Below, piece by piece: positions 51,435-58,215 of a stretch of DNA of 64,000 nucleotides. The stretch spans positions 9,920,001 to 9,984,000 of the forward strand of contig NZ_CP016279.1 of assembly GCF_001542625.1 (NCBI RefSeq), read 5' to 3'. The stretch's first letter is position 1. Every line of letters starts with the position of its first letter. Origin of the DNA: Streptomyces griseochromogenes (lineage in GTDB: Bacteria > Actinomycetota > Actinomycetes > Streptomycetales > Streptomycetaceae). The position numbers were made by a program, and so were the translations under genes. The notes beneath the pieces are model-generated. The model was not told where the DNA came from and did no database searches. It was given only the letters and a program-made list of their open reading frames with translations.

Positions 51435-52328
51435 CTACTCGTATTCCAGCGCCGCCCTGCCCGTCAGCGTGATCAGGCTGTTGCGCACATGGTCCATGTG
51501 CGCCTGAACGTCGTCCCAGGTCTCGCCGTGCTCGCGCAGCATCTCCTCCGTGTCCCGGGCGACGCGCTCCTCGCGCAGGCGGGCCTCGGCGAGGATCTCC
51601 GCCGCACGCGTCTGTGCCTCCTCCTCGCTGCGGCGTGCGGACTCCTCGGCCTCGCCGAGCTCACGCTGCGCCTCGGACAGGGCGGCCTCCGCGCGGGCGA
51701 TCCGCTCGCCATAGCGGGCCTCCAGCTCGGCCACCTGTTCGGCCCCCGCGCGCTCCAGCGCGGCCCACCGCTCGGCGTGGTCCCGGCCCTGCTCGGCGAG
51801 CACACCGGCGGTGCGCTCCCGCGCCTCGCGCAAGGTGGCGAGTGCCTCCGCGCGTTCTTCCTTCACCTCACGCCGGCTGCCGATGCGCAGGTCGTCGACT
51901 TCGGTACGCGCCGAAAGGAGGCACCGGCCGGCGTGTTCCTCGGCCTCCGTGCGCAGCGCGTCGGCGGCTTCCTGCGCCTCCTGACGTACGCCGAGGGCCT
52001 CGGCCTCGGCCTCGCCGACGCGTTGCCGCGCCTCGCTCCGCGCCCCGTCACGGATCTCCGCCGCTTCCTCCAGCACGAGCTGGAACAACCGCTGCGCGCT
52101 CTCCCCGAGCGTCTCGTACATCTGGGGCGGGAGCTGCGCGACGACCTCGCGCATCCGCACCGCCTCCGCGCCCATGTCCTTGGCGAGCACGGTCAGCCGC
52201 GCGGCACGCTCCCAGGCGGCGTCACGGTCCAGCGACAGCGCCTCCACATACGCGTCCACCTGATCGGGGTGGTAGCCACGCCCCCGGACGATCGCGAAGC
52301 AGTACGGCGTCATCGGTGCGCTGCTCAT
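51435..52328 (-). CDS. DivIVA-like coiled-coil protein
   Basis: This encodes 297 residues from ATG 52328. The N-terminal FAIVRGRGYHPDQVDAYVEAL resembles the DivIVA membrane-targeting start. From about residue 85 to 275 it is almost continuous coiled coil rich in Glu, Ala and Arg. It belongs with the Streptomyces cellulose-binding-protein/FilP-like group of cytoskeletal proteins, though shorter. It probably has a structural or polar-growth role. It is convergent with the symporter gene. Confidence 0.8.
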   Translation of the reverse strand: MSSAPMTPYCFAIVRGRGYHPDQVDAYVEALSLDRDAAWERAARLTVLAKDMGAEAVRMREVVAQLPPQMYETLGESAQRLFQLVLEEAAEIRDGARSEARQRVGEAEAEALGVRQEAQEAADALRTEAEEHAGRCLLSARTEVDDLRIGSRREVKEERAEALATLREARERTAGVLAEQGRDHAERWAALERAGAEQVAELEARYGERIARAEAALSEAQRELGEAEESARRSEEEAQTRAAEILAEARLREERVARDTEEMLREHGETWDDVQAHMDHVRNSLITLTGRAALEYE

Positions 52329-52661
52329 CCCCGGGAACCCCTCTCCGCCGGACGTACACGACAGGATAATTTCGCGCACATCTTGATGGATCGGTTGGAA
52401 GCGCGCATAACACGACACTCCGCAGGCATGTCACGGTAGGATGCTCGCCTGATCCGCACTCCGGGCCGCACAAGGCCTTCCGGGCACCGCGCGGGCCCCC
52501 GGAGGACATCCCCCTCCACGGTGACGATCATGCTGCGGACGGAGGCAGGCCGCGTTCGACCGCCCCCAGGTGCCGTTCGGCCGCAGAGATCCACAAAACG
52601 CGTCATGCCCCTTCACGCGCGCGTGAAGGGGCATGACGCCATCAGGCTCCGAGGGCCGCGA
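52329..52661. other. intergenic region between deaminase-SUKH gene and coiled-coil gene
   Basis: It contains the 40-bp terminator palindrome at 52600-52639 that ends the deaminase-SUKH operon. The promoter of the coiled-coil gene should lie around 52350-52450. I see no supported gene. Confidence 0.55.
52600..52639 (-). terminator. 40-bp perfect palindrome acting as terminator
   Basis: Bases 52600-52619 are the exact reverse complement of 52620-52639. On the minus strand it lies 22 bases past the stop of the deaminase-SUKH gene and is followed by GTTTTG. A loopless perfect palindrome of this length is unusual. Confidence 0.85.
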
Positions 52662-55600
52662 CTACAACAGCCCGTCCCACATCTGCTCCAGCAGCACCGA
52701 CCACCAGCTCTCCGGCGAACCGAGCGCCGCCGGGTCGAGGGCGGCCAGCTGGGCCTGGAAGTCGACCGTCCAGCGGCCCGCCTGCTCCTGGTTCAGGCCG
52801 AACCGCAGCCGCCACATCCGGCCCAGCAGCGCAAGGCACCGGGCGAACTCCGGCAGCCCCGTGTTCACGAACTGCGGCGCCACCGGCGCACCGCCCGGCC
52901 CGGCCTCCACCGGCACGGCGACGATGTTCGCCGTCCCGTACTGCACACAGAGCGCCCTGCCGAAGTCGGTACCCATGACGAGGTACGACCCCGCGTCGGA
53001 GGCCGGCTGCACCCCACGCTCGGCCGCCAGCTCCGCCAGCGTCGGCACCGGACGGCCCGGCTGGGCCTGCGCCCAGAAGAACGGGCCCAGGTCCACCGGC
53101 AGCCCCGCCACCACCAGCGTGTGCGCCACGACCGGCGGCACGCCCTGCCGCGACACCGCCTGCTGCTCGAACCGGAAGATCCCCGGCCCGAACACCGTCG
53201 CCAGCTCCTGGGCGATCCCCTCCGGCGGGATCGGCTGCACGGCCTGCACCGGCGGCAGCGGCGCCCGCACCGGCGCCGGCCGCGCGGGACCGTCCGCCAC
53301 CTGGTGCAACTCGCCCTGGTGCGCCAGCAACTGACGCATGCCCTGCTGCCGGCTCGCGTGATCCGTGCCGTACGGCGCGATGCTCGTGATCCGCGCCTGC
53401 GGCCACTGCTCCCGGATCATCCGCGCACAGTACGCACCCGGCAGCTCGCACGACTCCAGCTCCGTGTGCAGCTCCAGCACCTGGTCCGGCGGCACGTTCA
53501 TCGACCGCAGCTCGTGGAAGATCTGCCACTCCGGGTGCGGCGTACCCGGCGCCGAACGCCGGATCAGCTGCTGCTCCGAACCGTCCTGCGCGCGGTAGCG
53601 CAGCACGGCCTGATAGCCCGGACCCACCGTCGGCTGCGCCTGCTGCGGATAGCCGTACGCCGGAGCCTGCCCCGGCAGCGGACCGCCCGGCGGCGGCATC
53701 GCACCCGGCGGCATCGGCTGCGGAGCGCCCGGGGCGCCCGGCGGCATGCCAGGGGCGCCCGGAGCGCCGAGTGCGCCCGGAGCGGGCGGCGGCGGGGGCG
53801 CGCCCGGGCCACCCACGGGAGGAGCGGCCAGCACGGTCTCCGCGTGGTGCACGGCACCGCGCGCACCTCCCGGAGCGCCGGGGCCACCGGCCGCGCCCGG
53901 GGGCTGCGGGGCACCGGGGGGCTGCGGGGCACCGGGGGCGCCCGGAGGCTGAGGCGCGCCGGGAGCCGGAGGCATGCCCGGGGCGCCCGGAACCGCGGGT
54001 GCGCCCGGCGGATACGGCATACCCGGAGCACCCACCGCACCCTGCGCGCCAGGCGCACCCGGAACACCCGGAACACCCGGGGCGCCAGGCGGCTGCGGCG
54101 CGCCCGGAACCTGCGGCGCACCCGCTCCCAACTGGCTCGGGTCGGCCAGCACGGTGGCCGCGTGGTGGACGTTGCCCGGCGGCGTGCCACCAGGAGCACC
54201 CGGCGCACCAGGCGGCTGGGGAGCGCCCGGAACGCCCTGCACCTCAGGCCCCTCGGGCCCGAGCGCGGACACCAGCTGCGTCGGCACGTACCCGCCCGCA
54301 GGCGCACCCGGCACACCGGGCACGGGCGGCGCGGGATGGCCAGGGCGCGCGCCCGGCGCGCCGGGGACGCCCGGCGGAGGCGGCGGCGCACCCGGGCCGC
54401 CACGCCCCTTGCGCGGCGGCGGCGCGGCCTTGCTCGTCGCGGCGTCCGCGATGTCCCCGGCGTTCGGCGCGAGCGGCCGCGCGGAGTCGGCCGGAGGCTG
54501 CGGCGCGTGCGGGGCGCCGTCCGGCGCCTGCGGATAGCCGTATCCGGGAGCGGGCTGCGGACCACCCGGCGCGCCCGGACCCGACGGGTAGCCGTACGAC
54601 TGCGCGCCCAGGGGCAGCGGAGGAGGCGTGCTGCCCTGCGGGGCGCCCGGAGTCCCGGGGGGCGCGGGCGGAGTGCCGGGCACCGGAGAGGGCACCGGCA
54701 CACCCGGCGGGGGCGTACCAGGTGCCGCCGGTGCCTGCGGGTAGCCGTACGACTGCGCGCCCGGGGGCGGCGGAGGAGGCGTGCTGCCCATCGGAACGCC
54801 CGGAGCACCGGGTGCACCAGGAACGACAGGCGCCCCCGGTGCACCACCAGGGACGGGCATGGCGCCCGGCGCTCCCGGCGGCGGGAAGTTCTGCGGCCCC
54901 GGCGCGTTCGAGGCGTCGAGCGCCGGCGCGACCGCCGTGGGCGGCAGCTGGCTGCCGCCCGACATCAACGCCGTCTTCGCGTCCGGCGTCGCCGCCGGCG
55001 GCCGCGGAACCTCGTGGCCCTGCTCGCTCAACGGCGGCGCGAACACCGTCGCGGGCAGCGGCACCGAACGGTCCTCACCGGCATCCGCGTTCGTGTCCGT
55101 ACCGGCCCACGGCGTGGCCCCGGCAGGCACCTCCGGCGCACCCGGCACACCCGGCGCGCTCTGCGGCCCACCGGAGGCCACCGCACCCTGCGCACCACCC
55201 GGACCTGCCGCCGGCCACGAGGCACCGCTTCCGCCGGCCCCACCGGCCGTACCCGCTCCACCGGACCCGGCCGGCACACCCGCAGCCGCAGCACCCGAAC
55301 CCGCACTCGCACTCGCACTCGAAGCGGCGTCATCCGCCGCCGCGGGCACCCCGGCCTGCGTCTCGGCAAGCACCCCGCCCCCGGCGAAACCCCCACCGAC
55401 CGAACCCGCACCAGAGTCAGCCCCAGCCGCAGCCGCAGCGCCCGAGTCCTCCCCCGACCGCCGATCCGGAAGGCCCAGCTTGTCCGCCGCCTCCTGCAAC
55501 CACTCCGGCGGACTCAGCAGGAACGACGTCTGATTCAGATCCACGCGCGCGGGCGGCGGCGCCGGCACCGCGTCCTCGGCCTCCTCGGCACGGCCGTACT

Positions 55601-55847
55601 CCTCCTCGTACCGGCGGATCACCTCACCCACCGGCAGAGCCGGCCACAGCGTCGCCTCGCCGCTGTCCCGGGCGATGACCAGCCGCTGCCCGCCCGCATC
55701 CGAACGCGGGCCCTCCGCACGGTCCTCGCCCCACACCACGAAGCCCAGCTCGAACTCCCGCACCCGCACCTCACGATGCTGGTACGCGGGGACATCCCCG
55801 TTGATCCACTCCTCGGCGCGCTCCTGCGCCTGTGCGAACGTCACCAT
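52662..55847 (-). CDS. YrhB-like domain - collagen-like linker - deaminase - SUKH-4 fusion protein
   Basis: This encodes 1061 residues. Residues 1 to about 90 resemble the YrhB/Imm35 immunity fold (TFAQAQERAEEWING, then ATLWPALPVGEVIRRYEEEY). About 130-740 is Ala/Gly/Ser- and then Pro/Gly-rich, with collagen-like GAPGAPQPPGAPG runs and scattered TVLA-like motifs. About 744-855 looks like a zinc deaminase of polymorphic toxins: HTE at 794-796, then C800 and C807 in CELPGAYC. About 870-1061 matches a SUKH-4 immunity domain (VVAGLPVDLGPFFW, VMGTDFGRALCVQYGTA, FVNTGLPEFARCLALL). There is no signal peptide. It is transcribed 8 bases after the SUKH gene. Confidence 0.8.
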   Translation of the reverse strand: MVTFAQAQERAEEWINGDVPAYQHREVRVREFELGFVVWGEDRAEGPRSDAGGQRLVIARDSGEATLWPALPVGEVIRRYEEEYGRAEEAEDAVPAPPPARVDLNQTSFLLSPPEWLQEAADKLGLPDRRSGEDSGAAAAAGADSGAGSVGGGFAGGGVLAETQAGVPAAADDAASSASASAGSGAAAAGVPAGSGGAGTAGGAGGSGASWPAAGPGGAQGAVASGGPQSAPGVPGAPEVPAGATPWAGTDTNADAGEDRSVPLPATVFAPPLSEQGHEVPRPPAATPDAKTALMSGGSQLPPTAVAPALDASNAPGPQNFPPPGAPGAMPVPGGAPGAPVVPGAPGAPGVPMGSTPPPPPPGAQSYGYPQAPAAPGTPPPGVPVPSPVPGTPPAPPGTPGAPQGSTPPPLPLGAQSYGYPSGPGAPGGPQPAPGYGYPQAPDGAPHAPQPPADSARPLAPNAGDIADAATSKAAPPPRKGRGGPGAPPPPPGVPGAPGARPGHPAPPVPGVPGAPAGGYVPTQLVSALGPEGPEVQGVPGAPQPPGAPGAPGGTPPGNVHHAATVLADPSQLGAGAPQVPGAPQPPGAPGVPGVPGAPGAQGAVGAPGMPYPPGAPAVPGAPGMPPAPGAPQPPGAPGAPQPPGAPQPPGAAGGPGAPGGARGAVHHAETVLAAPPVGGPGAPPPPPAPGALGAPGAPGMPPGAPGAPQPMPPGAMPPPGGPLPGQAPAYGYPQQAQPTVGPGYQAVLRYRAQDGSEQQLIRRSAPGTPHPEWQIFHELRSMNVPPDQVLELHTELESCELPGAYCARMIREQWPQARITSIAPYGTDHASRQQGMRQLLAHQGELHQVADGPARPAPVRAPLPPVQAVQPIPPEGIAQELATVFGPGIFRFEQQAVSRQGVPPVVAHTLVVAGLPVDLGPFFWAQAQPGRPVPTLAELAAERGVQPASDAGSYLVMGTDFGRALCVQYGTANIVAVPVEAGPGGAPVAPQFVNTGLPEFARCLALLGRMWRLRFGLNQEQAGRWTVDFQAQLAALDPAALGSPESWWSVLLEQMWDGLL
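53628..54899 (-). repeat. collagen-like Pro/Gly/Ala repeat region inside the deaminase-SUKH gene
   Basis: About 420 codons encode imperfect repeats of GAPG, QPPGAPG, GYPQAP and related units. Two near-copies of VHHA(A/E)TVLA(D/A) occur at about 53820-53855 and 54141-54171. The repetitive DNA may vary in length between strains. Confidence 0.8.
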
Positions 55848-55855
55848 CGCGAAGC

Positions 55856-56845
55856 TCACTCCCCCGCCGAAGAGACCGGAACGGCACGCGCGAAACCGCC
55901 GTCCACCATCAGGTTCGCCACCGTCTCCAACTCCGGCGGATTGCCCGCGAGCCGCGACAGGAAGGCGTCGAAATCGTCGCCGCACGGCAACAGCAGCCGC
56001 TCCACCCGCTCGGCCGGGGACCACGACGGATCCACGTCCCGCACGTCGTCGTACGCGCAGAACCAGACCGAACCCAGCCGTTCGCCCTTCACCTTCACCG
56101 CGAGCAGACCACCCTGCACAAAACCGACGCCCAGGTAGTCCTTCGTCAGATGGTCGCGCAGGCACTTGTTGACGTAGACCAGGTCATTGACCGCCGCCTC
56201 GTCCCGCACCGTGAAGAACGGCTGGTCCACCAGCAGCCCCAGCTCGGCATCGAGCGCCGCGCCCACCGGCGCACAACCGCCCGCCGCCTTCAGGAACGAG
56301 CGATAGGCACCCGGCAACCGGTAGCCCAGATCCTCCTCGACGCCCTGCACCTGGGACTCCGTCACGGCCACACCCGACTTCGGCAGCCCGAAGTGCACCG
56401 GACGCGTCTCCTGCAACGGCCGCGTCCCACGCTTGCCCTGGTCCACCCGCGCCGTCGCCACCCCACCGTGATGCCGCAACAACGCCTTCACATCGACCGG
56501 AACCAGCTCCAGCCGCCGCGAACCCACCACGTGATGCCACGTCCAGCCGTGCGGTGTCGCCACATCCGGCACCGTGTCCCACAACTCGTGCCCCGACGCC
56601 GCCAACGCCGCGTTCGCCGACACATAGTCCGTCAGCCGCAACTCGTCGACGCCGAAACCCTCCGGCGGATCGGCGATCTCGGCCGCCGCGCGCGCGTACG
56701 CCGAGAAATCGGGGTAACCAAGCTCATCGGCCCGTACCCCTCTCGGGTGACGTGCCGCCCGAACGGGATCCGGGAAGTGCACGACCTGCCCGGCATAGGC
56801 CGCGTTCGGCGGCGCGGCTTGCTGCCCGAGCCGACCTGTCGTCAT
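55856..56845 (-). CDS. SMI1/KNR4-type SUKH-family protein
   Basis: This encodes 329 residues from ATG 56845 with GGGGG upstream. The first 150 residues are of unknown type (VVHFPDPVRAARHPRGVRA). The second half has the SUKH-1 pattern: VTESQVQGVEEDLGYRLPGA followed by YRSFLKAAGGCAPV, then DEAAVNDLVYVNKCLRDHL, GVGFVQGGLLAVKVKGE and GDDFDAFLSRLAGNPP. SUKH proteins are immunity proteins to nuclease and deaminase toxins, or related binding modules. Its stop is 8 bases from the start of the deaminase-SUKH-4 gene, so they form an operon. It is divergent from the YwqJ-type deaminase gene. Confidence 0.85.
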   Translation of the reverse strand: MTTGRLGQQAAPPNAAYAGQVVHFPDPVRAARHPRGVRADELGYPDFSAYARAAAEIADPPEGFGVDELRLTDYVSANAALAASGHELWDTVPDVATPHGWTWHHVVGSRRLELVPVDVKALLRHHGGVATARVDQGKRGTRPLQETRPVHFGLPKSGVAVTESQVQGVEEDLGYRLPGAYRSFLKAAGGCAPVGAALDAELGLLVDQPFFTVRDEAAVNDLVYVNKCLRDHLTKDYLGVGFVQGGLLAVKVKGERLGSVWFCAYDDVRDVDPSWSPAERVERLLLPCGDDFDAFLSRLAGNPPELETVANLMVDGGFARAVPVSSAGE

Positions 56846-57119
56846 GGCGGTTGCCCCCTGCGGCGTTCTCTCTGGCCTGAACGGCGGTGTCGATCGCGGA
56901 TGGCCACAGCCTATGCGGTACACGAACCCCGGTCACCGGCCCACCACATCCACCGGCCCACCCCGGCACCGCCGAACCCCCCACAACCGTGACCAGCCGT
57001 CACCCCGCCGTGACAGCCCGCCCAAACCCGGGCGTGTCGCACCGCCCCAGCTTCCCGACCAGCCACGGGATTTGGCACTCTGTGTCCTTCGGGGGACGCC
57101 CGGGGAGGGGAAGACGATC

Positions 57120-57635
57120 ATGAATACCTTGCAGACCGGAGGTAACGACGTGCGGGCCGGCGACCCTCGCATCGGCTGGAGCGGCACCGAGGCACCTCCC
57201 ACCCCCACCCTCCTCCACCGCCGCGACGGCATCCTGCCCACCATCGCCGCGGCCCTCTCCGTCCGCGGCGCCACCCTCACCGGCACCGCCGCCCGCGGCG
57301 ACCAGCCCCCGCCCCTCCACGCCCTCGTCCAGGACTTCCTCGACACCCTCACCAGCGCCCAACGCGACCGCTTCACCGGCCGCTGCGCCGAGACCATCCT
57401 CATCTCCCGGCACATCGCCGCCGCCGACACCGCCCGCAGCAAACGCGCCGCCCGAAAACCCATGACCAACGGCGAAGCACGCAAAGCCCTCAAACAGGCC
57501 AAACTCACCGCCCGCCGCATACGCGAGGACGGCGACCCCCTCCACGGCAGCTTCGCCGCCCCCTGCCGCGCCTGCACCGCCCTCAGCGCCCACTTCGGCG
57601 TCCGCATCGTCGACCCGACGGCAACCGACGGCTGA
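57120..57635 (+). CDS. YwqJ-type putative nucleic acid deaminase
   Basis: This encodes 171 residues from ATG 57120, preceded by GGGAGGGG. The deaminase zinc motif is intact: Cys89-Ala-Glu91 in RCAETILIS and Cys149/Cys152 in APCRACTAL, with a Lys/Arg-rich helix between (SKRAARKPMTNGEARKALKQ). This is the pattern of YwqJ-type deaminases of the polymorphic toxin system set. There is no signal peptide or pretoxin domain. It is followed 49 bases on by a SUKH-3-type gene on the same strand, the expected immunity partner. Confidence 0.85.
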   Translation: MNTLQTGGNDVRAGDPRIGWSGTEAPPTPTLLHRRDGILPTIAAALSVRGATLTGTAARGDQPPPLHALVQDFLDTLTSAQRDRFTGRCAETILISRHIAAADTARSKRAARKPMTNGEARKALKQAKLTARRIREDGDPLHGSFAAPCRACTALSAHFGVRIVDPTATDG

Positions 57636-57684
57636 ACCCCGCCACCACCGGCCCGACCCAGCACACACGACGATCGAAGGGCAG

Positions 57685-58215
57685 ATGCACGCCGACCGCA
57701 GCTCCTCCCCCAACCTCGGCTTCGCCCGACCCGGGGGACCCCCATCGCGCTTCCCCGTACCCGTCGACGCCGCCCTGCGCACCGCCGGCTGGCAACCCGG
57801 TCGCTGGGACATAAAACAAGCCGAAATCTGGGCCGACACCCTGCGCGACCACACCTCACCCGCGGGACACCGGCACACCGTCTTCCCCGCCGCCGTCGAA
57901 GCCTGGGCCGAATTCGGCGGCCTCCACATCACGCCCACCGGCCCCGGCCGCCAGATCGCCCCCGCCACCCTCCACCTCGACCCCCTGCACGGCCTCCACC
58001 TCGCCCGCACCCTCGGCGACCTCGGCCGCGCCCTCGGCACCGAGGTCTGCCCCCTCGGCGAGGAGACCGACACCGCCGCCCTCCTCGCCATCGACGCCGA
58101 AGGCCGCGTCTACACCCTCGACCACACCGGCGACTGGTACGTCGGCCCCGGCATCGACCACGCCCTGGCCACCCTCGTCTCCGGCCTGGAACCCGCACGC
58201 CTCACCACCGGCTGA
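57685..58215 (+). CDS. SUKH-3-type immunity protein
   Basis: This encodes 176 residues from ATG 57685 with GAAGGG upstream. The order of motifs fits SUKH-3: AALRTAGWQPGRWD, FPAAVEAWAEFGGLHI, LHLDPL, a LGTEVCPLGEE segment, LAIDAEGRVYTLDH, and the closing WYVGPGIDHALATLVSG. It is probably the immunity partner of the preceding deaminase. It ends 42 bases before the convergent histidine kinase gene. Confidence 0.85.
   Translation: MHADRSSSPNLGFARPGGPPSRFPVPVDAALRTAGWQPGRWDIKQAEIWADTLRDHTSPAGHRHTVFPAAVEAWAEFGGLHITPTGPGRQIAPATLHLDPLHGLHLARTLGDLGRALGTEVCPLGEETDTAALLAIDAEGRVYTLDHTGDWYVGPGIDHALATLVSGLEPARLTTG

Follow-up and report, generated by a model that had tools for sequence, protein, structure and literature searches.

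Within a stretch of 64,000 nucleotides from Streptomyces griseochromogenes (assembly GCF_001542625.1, contig NZ_CP016279.1, positions 9,920,001 to 9,984,000; hereafter the window), four adjacent genes, arranged as two divergent pairs, encode three enzyme domains of toxin families and three SUKH domains, and in two of the four proteins the enzyme and the SUKH domain are fused in cis. This quartet occurs in one fixed order across the genus, its minus-strand pair is under strong purifying selection, and both of its deaminases have kept their zinc sites. We read it, tentatively, as a domesticated and vertically inherited enzyme module of the Streptomycetaceae, restrained by its SUKH domains and acting within the cell that makes it. 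A preliminary description of the window had reported four adjacent genes with two deaminases and three SUKH domains; the genes, their coordinates and the SUKH domains stand, and the count of enzyme domains rises to three. The genes and domains are as follows (positions are those of the window).

52662-55847, minus strand: gene (open reading frame) of a 1061-amino-acid protein, deaminase-SUKH4
55563-55847, minus strand: its N-terminal domain, about residues 1-95; common to short relatives, unrecognised by Pfam
53625-55562, minus strand: Pro/Gly/Ala-rich linker, missing from short relatives
53322-53624, minus strand: XOO_2897-type deaminase, residues 742-842 (PF14440, 2.9e-36); H794, E796, C800, C807
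52683-53213, minus strand: SUKH-4 domain, residues 879-1055 (Pfam, 2.7e-47)
55856-56845, minus strand: gene of a 329-amino-acid protein, WHH-SUKH1, with Pfam matches over cut-off
56444-56560, minus strand: WHH nuclease core, residues 96-134 (PF14414); W103, H104, H105, K120, H125, H126
55955-56365, minus strand: SUKH-1 domain, residues 161-297 (Pfam SMI1_KNR4, 3.1e-11)
57120-57635, plus strand: gene of a YwqJ-type deaminase, 171 amino acids, its start following the residue numbering of the preliminary description
57685-58215, plus strand: gene of a SUKH-3 protein, 176 amino acids (Pfam)

Domain architecture of the four proteins

Domain calls were judged against the curated cut-offs of Pfam, and weaker matches were inspected up to an E-value of 1. 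All three SUKH domains exceed their cut-offs and belong to the SUKH superfamily (SUKH-4 at 161.6, SUKH-1 at 44.4 and SUKH-3 at 202.8 bits), and the E-values, taken together with conservation across the genus, exclude the cluster being a product of chance. The 329-amino-acid protein had been described as SUKH-1-like, which holds for its SUKH-1 domain but overlooks the WHH nuclease domain in front of it (PF14414, residues 96-134, 1.4e-14, 54.0 bits against a cut-off of 25.1); the Colicin-DNase family PF12639 also matches above its cut-off, over residues 40-127 (1.8e-8). The six motif residues listed above are all kept in 106 of 111 loci, and the five exceptions, which come from the order's other family, replace H104 by A, V or T and carry H or N at position 120. 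The motif of Tox-WHH is given, in the parts of Zhang et al. 2012 (PMC3482391) that list it, as WHH, L, H, HxG. Measured against that motif, WHH and HxG are present and K120 stands for the central H in those same 106 loci, while a His is found at this position in two other WHH proteins and in one phage WHH protein. The presumed general-base His of the domain, an assignment that we carry over from HNH enzymes, is invariant across loci. Nuclease activity nevertheless appears doubtful, since one presumed metal ligand is altered in each lineage. When profiles were compared with solved structures, WHH-SUKH1 matched an Rhs protein at an E-value of 8.2e-4, across only 31 positions, and the other two queries found no reliable match. 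The WHH-SUKH1 reading frame is split in one genome (G177, locus L130).

The PF14440 match of the 1061-amino-acid protein, at 124.1 bits against a cut-off of 27, places its enzyme among the XOO_2897-type deaminases. Both H794, E796, C800 and C807 and the C-terminal SUKH-4 domain had been recognised in the preliminary description and are borne out, the latter by a score over the Pfam cut-off. The HxE motif and the two cysteines (HECC) persist in 95 of 96 core loci; the sole deviation is locus L127 (genome G390), which has Asp for the catalytic Glu and a plus-strand pair at a distance of about 5 kb. A partial model of the deaminase found its best matches among APOBEC, cytidine and blasticidin-S deaminases and DddA, none of them at an E-value of 0.001 or better, and a deaminase fold is supported as far as such a prediction goes. 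DddA, APOBEC and the cytidine deaminases differ from the quartet deaminases in belonging to another family, and in the quartet a SUKH domain is present in cis. For the N-terminal domain, which had been called YrhB-like, no Pfam family was matched in the window protein even at an E-value of 10, and one of four related pieces gave an Imm35 match at 0.16; sequence comparison indicates a real domain all the same, since it is common to the short relatives described below. The linker is long, as had been noted, but the epithet "collagen-like" does not fit it, as the Collagen family scores 17.9 bits against a cut-off of 27.2 and the segment is simply rich in Pro, Gly and Ala.

On the plus strand, the match to the YwqJ-deaminase family PF14431 (4.3e-24) reaches 85.7 bits against a cut-off of 25.9 and the partner gene encodes a SUKH-3 protein (PF14433, 3.5e-60), so that C89, E91, C149 and C152 and the SUKH-3 partner are as first described; these residues (CECC, in CxE and CxxC motifs) are kept in 101 of 101 loci. 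Here the enzyme and the SUKH protein are encoded by neighbouring genes, whereas SUKH-1 and SUKH-4 each share a chain with their enzyme, which makes two cis fusions (WHH-SUKH1 and deaminase-SUKH4) where only one had been proposed. The 8-base spacing between the WHH-SUKH1 gene and the 1061-amino-acid gene that follows it is as previously stated, and so is the lack of RHS repeats and pretoxin domains: no trafficking, RHS or pretoxin family of Pfam was matched in the four proteins at E-values up to 1. The four proteins likewise contain no WXG or LXG family of Pfam. NCBIfam gave no match, and the best match in PHROGs has an E-value of 0.0052.

Gene order, distribution and selection

The order and orientation of the quartet are identical in 19 of 19 diverse loci of the genus, and a synteny survey across Streptomyces, which had been proposed as a check, thus returns a single arrangement. 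The quartet is the same in 68 of the 80 named loci, and the remaining 12 end before the missing genes; these named loci were taken as the top 80 when 466 relatives were ranked by their WHH-SUKH1 match, a choice that favours the identity of that gene. No exchange of toxin cassettes was seen in the 19 diverse loci or in the 68 named loci long enough to show it. Among five loci from other genera the quartet is complete in L124, L126 and L129, L127 has its plus-strand pair at the distance given above, and L128 ends before the deaminase.

PF14440 is found in 188 of 199 Streptomyces genomes, and the eleven genomes without it are mostly fragmented; this is not so for G009 (2 contigs), in which the locus is partly N in sequence, or for G029 (60 contigs). 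WHH-SUKH1 is present in 190 of the 199, the nine misses all being assemblies of at least 240 contigs, and in 290 of 293 genomes of the order. A sample of the class yielded it in 47 of 393 genomes, 44 within the genus and three outside (3/349), one of these by a partial match; because the searches across the class scored no more than a few top candidates in each genome, the count outside the genus is to be taken as a minimum. The WHH-SUKH1 proteins of the order's other family (41-45% identity) divergently adjoin mfd in 5 of 5 loci, and because mfd also lies about 12 kb from the cluster in the window, vertical descent in place is indicated. The YwqJ-type protein was matched in none of the 12 genomes of that family, and deaminase-SUKH4 in one of the 12 and more weakly (4.3e-16). 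In a third family, one genome (G199) has relatives of YwqJ (3.3e-30) without WHH-SUKH1, and five genomes of other genera in the window's own family have all three enzymes. From these distributions we infer that WHH-SUKH1 was the first of the parts to occupy this site and that the quartet characterises the Streptomycetaceae.

Identity to the window across the 61 full-length named loci has a median of 91.7% in WHH-SUKH1, 92.7% in the deaminase and 91.9% in SUKH-4, as compared to 85.0% in YwqJ, 78.4% in SUKH-3 and 83.9% in the neighbouring GlmU. Median ratios of nonsynonymous to synonymous substitution rates (dN/dS) are 0.111 for WHH-SUKH1, 0.141 for the deaminase and 0.148 for SUKH-4, against 0.204 for GlmU. 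By both measures, therefore, the minus-strand pair is more constrained than GlmU. In the differently chosen diverse loci, WHH-SUKH1 is closer to the window than GlmU is in 17 of the 18 that have a GlmU match (some of these matches are partial), the exception being L077.

Relatives, intergenic region and neighbouring genes

Short relatives of the 1061-amino-acid protein, of about 440 amino acids, have the same N-terminal domain, deaminase and SUKH-4 in the same order, and differ from it in their lack of the long linker, their patchy occurrence and the loss of the zinc site. They occur in 20 of the 199 genus genomes and in four genomes of another family of the class (the search listed 23 genomes, three of which matched only through the core gene and were left out). 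The zinc site is lost in all 27 copies read, i.e., 21 of 21 genus copies, read on both strands, and L272-L275, L277 and L281; further copies, two in G390 among them, stand outside the 27. The short copies keep the His, have Asp for Glu and have both Cys replaced. With the zinc sites kept in the core loci and lost in the short copies, it appears that the core copy has stayed catalytic within an architecture that is able to live without catalysis. In L276, L277 and L281 each short pseudo-deaminase is preceded by a protein of 649-730 amino acids with a P-loop-like start; one of these has a weak AAA_16 match below the cut-off, and the other one that was scanned has none.

A few relatives lie in the neighbourhood of type VII (ESX) secretion genes. 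In G065 the distance from a short relative to an EccC-type FtsK/SpoIIIE gene is about 3 kb, and this gene adjoins EccD; G229 has, by sequence, the same near neighbours. In G637 a WHH-SUKH1 protein has as its neighbour a protein with a weak WXG100_2 match below the cut-off, and WXG100 and EccB genes lie in the same region. In the Ruminococcus phage PV036417.1 (locus L330), a protein ending in WHH is directly followed by a SUKH-like gene, both annotated as hypothetical proteins. This pair resembles WHH-SUKH1 in the order of WHH and SUKH (joint match at an E-value of 6e-6, 23.7% identity) and differs from it in being two separate adjacent genes and in having the canonical central His where the window has K120.

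Three further features flank or separate the gene pairs.

52600-52639, minus strand: terminator-like hairpin followed by TTTT, after the 1061-amino-acid gene, as read from the sequence
56908-56915, minus strand: -10-like CATAGGCT, upstream of WHH-SUKH1
56989-57003, no strand assigned: palindrome GTGAC-N5-GTCAC in the spacer of the two divergent pairs; candidate operator in the clade to which the window belongs

Of the 61 near loci, 55 have the -10-like sequence, as do 17 of the 22 diverse loci. The palindrome occurs exactly in 53 of the 61 near loci and in none of 1220 control stretches, and within one mismatch in 58 of 61 as compared to 6 of 1220 controls, which suggests joint control of the divergent pairs within the window's clade. 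A genus-wide operator is ruled out, since only 7 of the 22 diverse loci have the palindrome within one mismatch. Beside it lies a further GTGAC half-site (56989-57016 overall), so that the operator candidate may comprise three half-sites. We take the arms, though not the centre, to be similar to the half-sites (TnAC...GTnA) of BldD, a developmental regulator; this similarity is only a lead.

The scanned genes on one flank of the cluster encode an SDR-type dehydrogenase, Mfd, an FtsX/MacB-type permease and MFS, DUF485 and SSF proteins, and those on the opposite flank a histidine kinase, a helix-turn-helix protein and GlmU; no ESX genes are among these scanned neighbours. The minus-strand gene next after the cluster (51435-52418) adjoins it in all 61 full-length named loci. 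Its product, which matches DivIVA below the Pfam cut-off (9.8e-5), may be a coiled-coil protein. The locus lies near one end of its 10.76-Mb contig and well inside the chromosome in several other single-contig genomes, a difference that may come from where the assembly was cut or from a rearrangement.

Weapon, regulator or cellular module

In the parts of Zhang et al. 2012 (PMC3482391) that deal with these families, Tox-WHH and the XOO2897 and YwqJ deaminases are listed with an Imm-SUKH partner, fusions of SUKH to toxins are occasional (Tox-GHH being an example), and the families are effectors of type VII (ESX) systems. The quartet thus resembles polymorphic toxin systems in its enzyme families and in the family of their SUKH partners (PMC3482391), and is unlike them in that no trafficking domain was matched, no cassettes are exchanged, it is near-universal in its genus and two of the three enzymes have their SUKH domain in cis. 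Its fixation and invariance, the slow evolution of its minus-strand enzymes and the strictness of its zinc sites all set it apart from a polymorphic weapon and point to a domesticated, SUKH-restrained module, most likely acting in its own cell; it probably has a steady cellular job more than that of a changeable weapon. As a rule, the toxin families deployed in bacterial conflict are patchily distributed and evolve fast. An ordinary toxin-immunity locus serving competition between kin, although every enzyme and SUKH family here belongs to such systems, is very improbable in view of the unexchanged cassettes in the 19 diverse loci, the lack of a matched trafficking domain, and minus-strand enzyme domains that are among the slowest-evolving parts measured.

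In the own-cell module that we prefer, the proteins would remain where they are made, each SUKH domain would hold its own enzyme in check, and a signal would alter the SUKH contact, whether by a ligand, by a partner protein or by cleavage or clustering via the long linker; the freed deaminases, perhaps together with the nuclease-like protein, would then act on nucleic acids or nucleotides of that same cell. The Streptomycetaceae are mycelial, sporulating bacteria, and because the module marks this family, a developmental or stress role is its likeliest setting. A more specific version, in which SUKH-locked deaminases and a nuclease-like protein of the core genome become active at a fixed stage of the mycelial life cycle, with the cell's DNA, RNA or nucleotides as their targets, e.g., in programmed mycelial death or regulated base editing, is possible but on balance unlikely. 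The preliminary description had also proposed an intracellular, self-restrained module, and the cis SUKH domains, the lack of a trafficking match and the invariant cluster favour that proposal over an exchangeable weapon, while the relatives near ESX loci do not.

Several observations weigh against the own-cell module. Predicted models failed to place a SUKH domain over an active site. The plus-strand pair is less constrained than GlmU, with median dN/dS of 0.350 for YwqJ and 0.435 for SUKH-3. Partial correlations between enzymes and SUKH domains (500 permutations) range from 0.07 to 0.33, with 0.09 for deaminase/SUKH-4, 0.21 for nuclease/SUKH-1 and 0.31 for YwqJ/SUKH-3, and as the non-partners SUKH-4 and YwqJ reach 0.33, specific pairing by co-variation is unsupported. 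K120 takes the place of a presumed metal ligand of the nuclease. The short relatives, with their architecture retained and their catalytic residues lost, appear able to serve without catalysis, and the relatives near ESX genes in a few genomes suggest that export is possible.

These relatives in or near ESX loci (G065, G229 and G637) make type VII export the main rival, in which the proteins would be core effectors directed onto neighbours or within the mycelium, with SUKH as chaperone or immunity. The families are known effectors of such systems (PMC3482391), but the scanned neighbours in the window are not ESX genes, no WXG or LXG family was matched in the four proteins, a toxin that left the cell together with its SUKH domain would be restrained in its target, and the sequences lack the variation usual for antagonistic effectors; we consider such export unlikely. 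The dead relatives and the altered nuclease site give the next place to a non-catalytic or regulatory role, in which domains derived from toxins would bind nucleotides, nucleic acids or proteins and SUKH domains would serve as interaction modules. The 27 short copies that kept their architecture without a zinc site, like K120 in the nuclease, would suit such a role, which is somewhat more unlikely than export: if the domains only had to bind, there would be no call for the catalytic Glu and the zinc ligands to persist in 95 of 96 and 101 of 101 core loci. Restrained nucleic-acid enzymes are a common design of abortive infection systems, and a fixed anti-phage module of this kind, which the preliminary description had also entertained, would fit that design. 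Defence genes, however, are usually patchy, whereas this is one locus fixed across the genus and not a variable island, and the four proteins found no match in PADLOC at E-values up to 1; we regard an anti-phage role as improbable.

The families themselves were already known; what the present analysis adds is their core status, the double cis fusion that includes a nuclease, and a catalytic core copy set against dead accessory copies. Three toxin families have been frozen into the core genome of a large family of antibiotic producers. If their action is indeed intracellular, the quartet would be a clear bacterial case of conversion from weapon to housekeeping, and its enzymes would be candidate executioners of mycelial death or candidates for regulated nucleic-acid editing.

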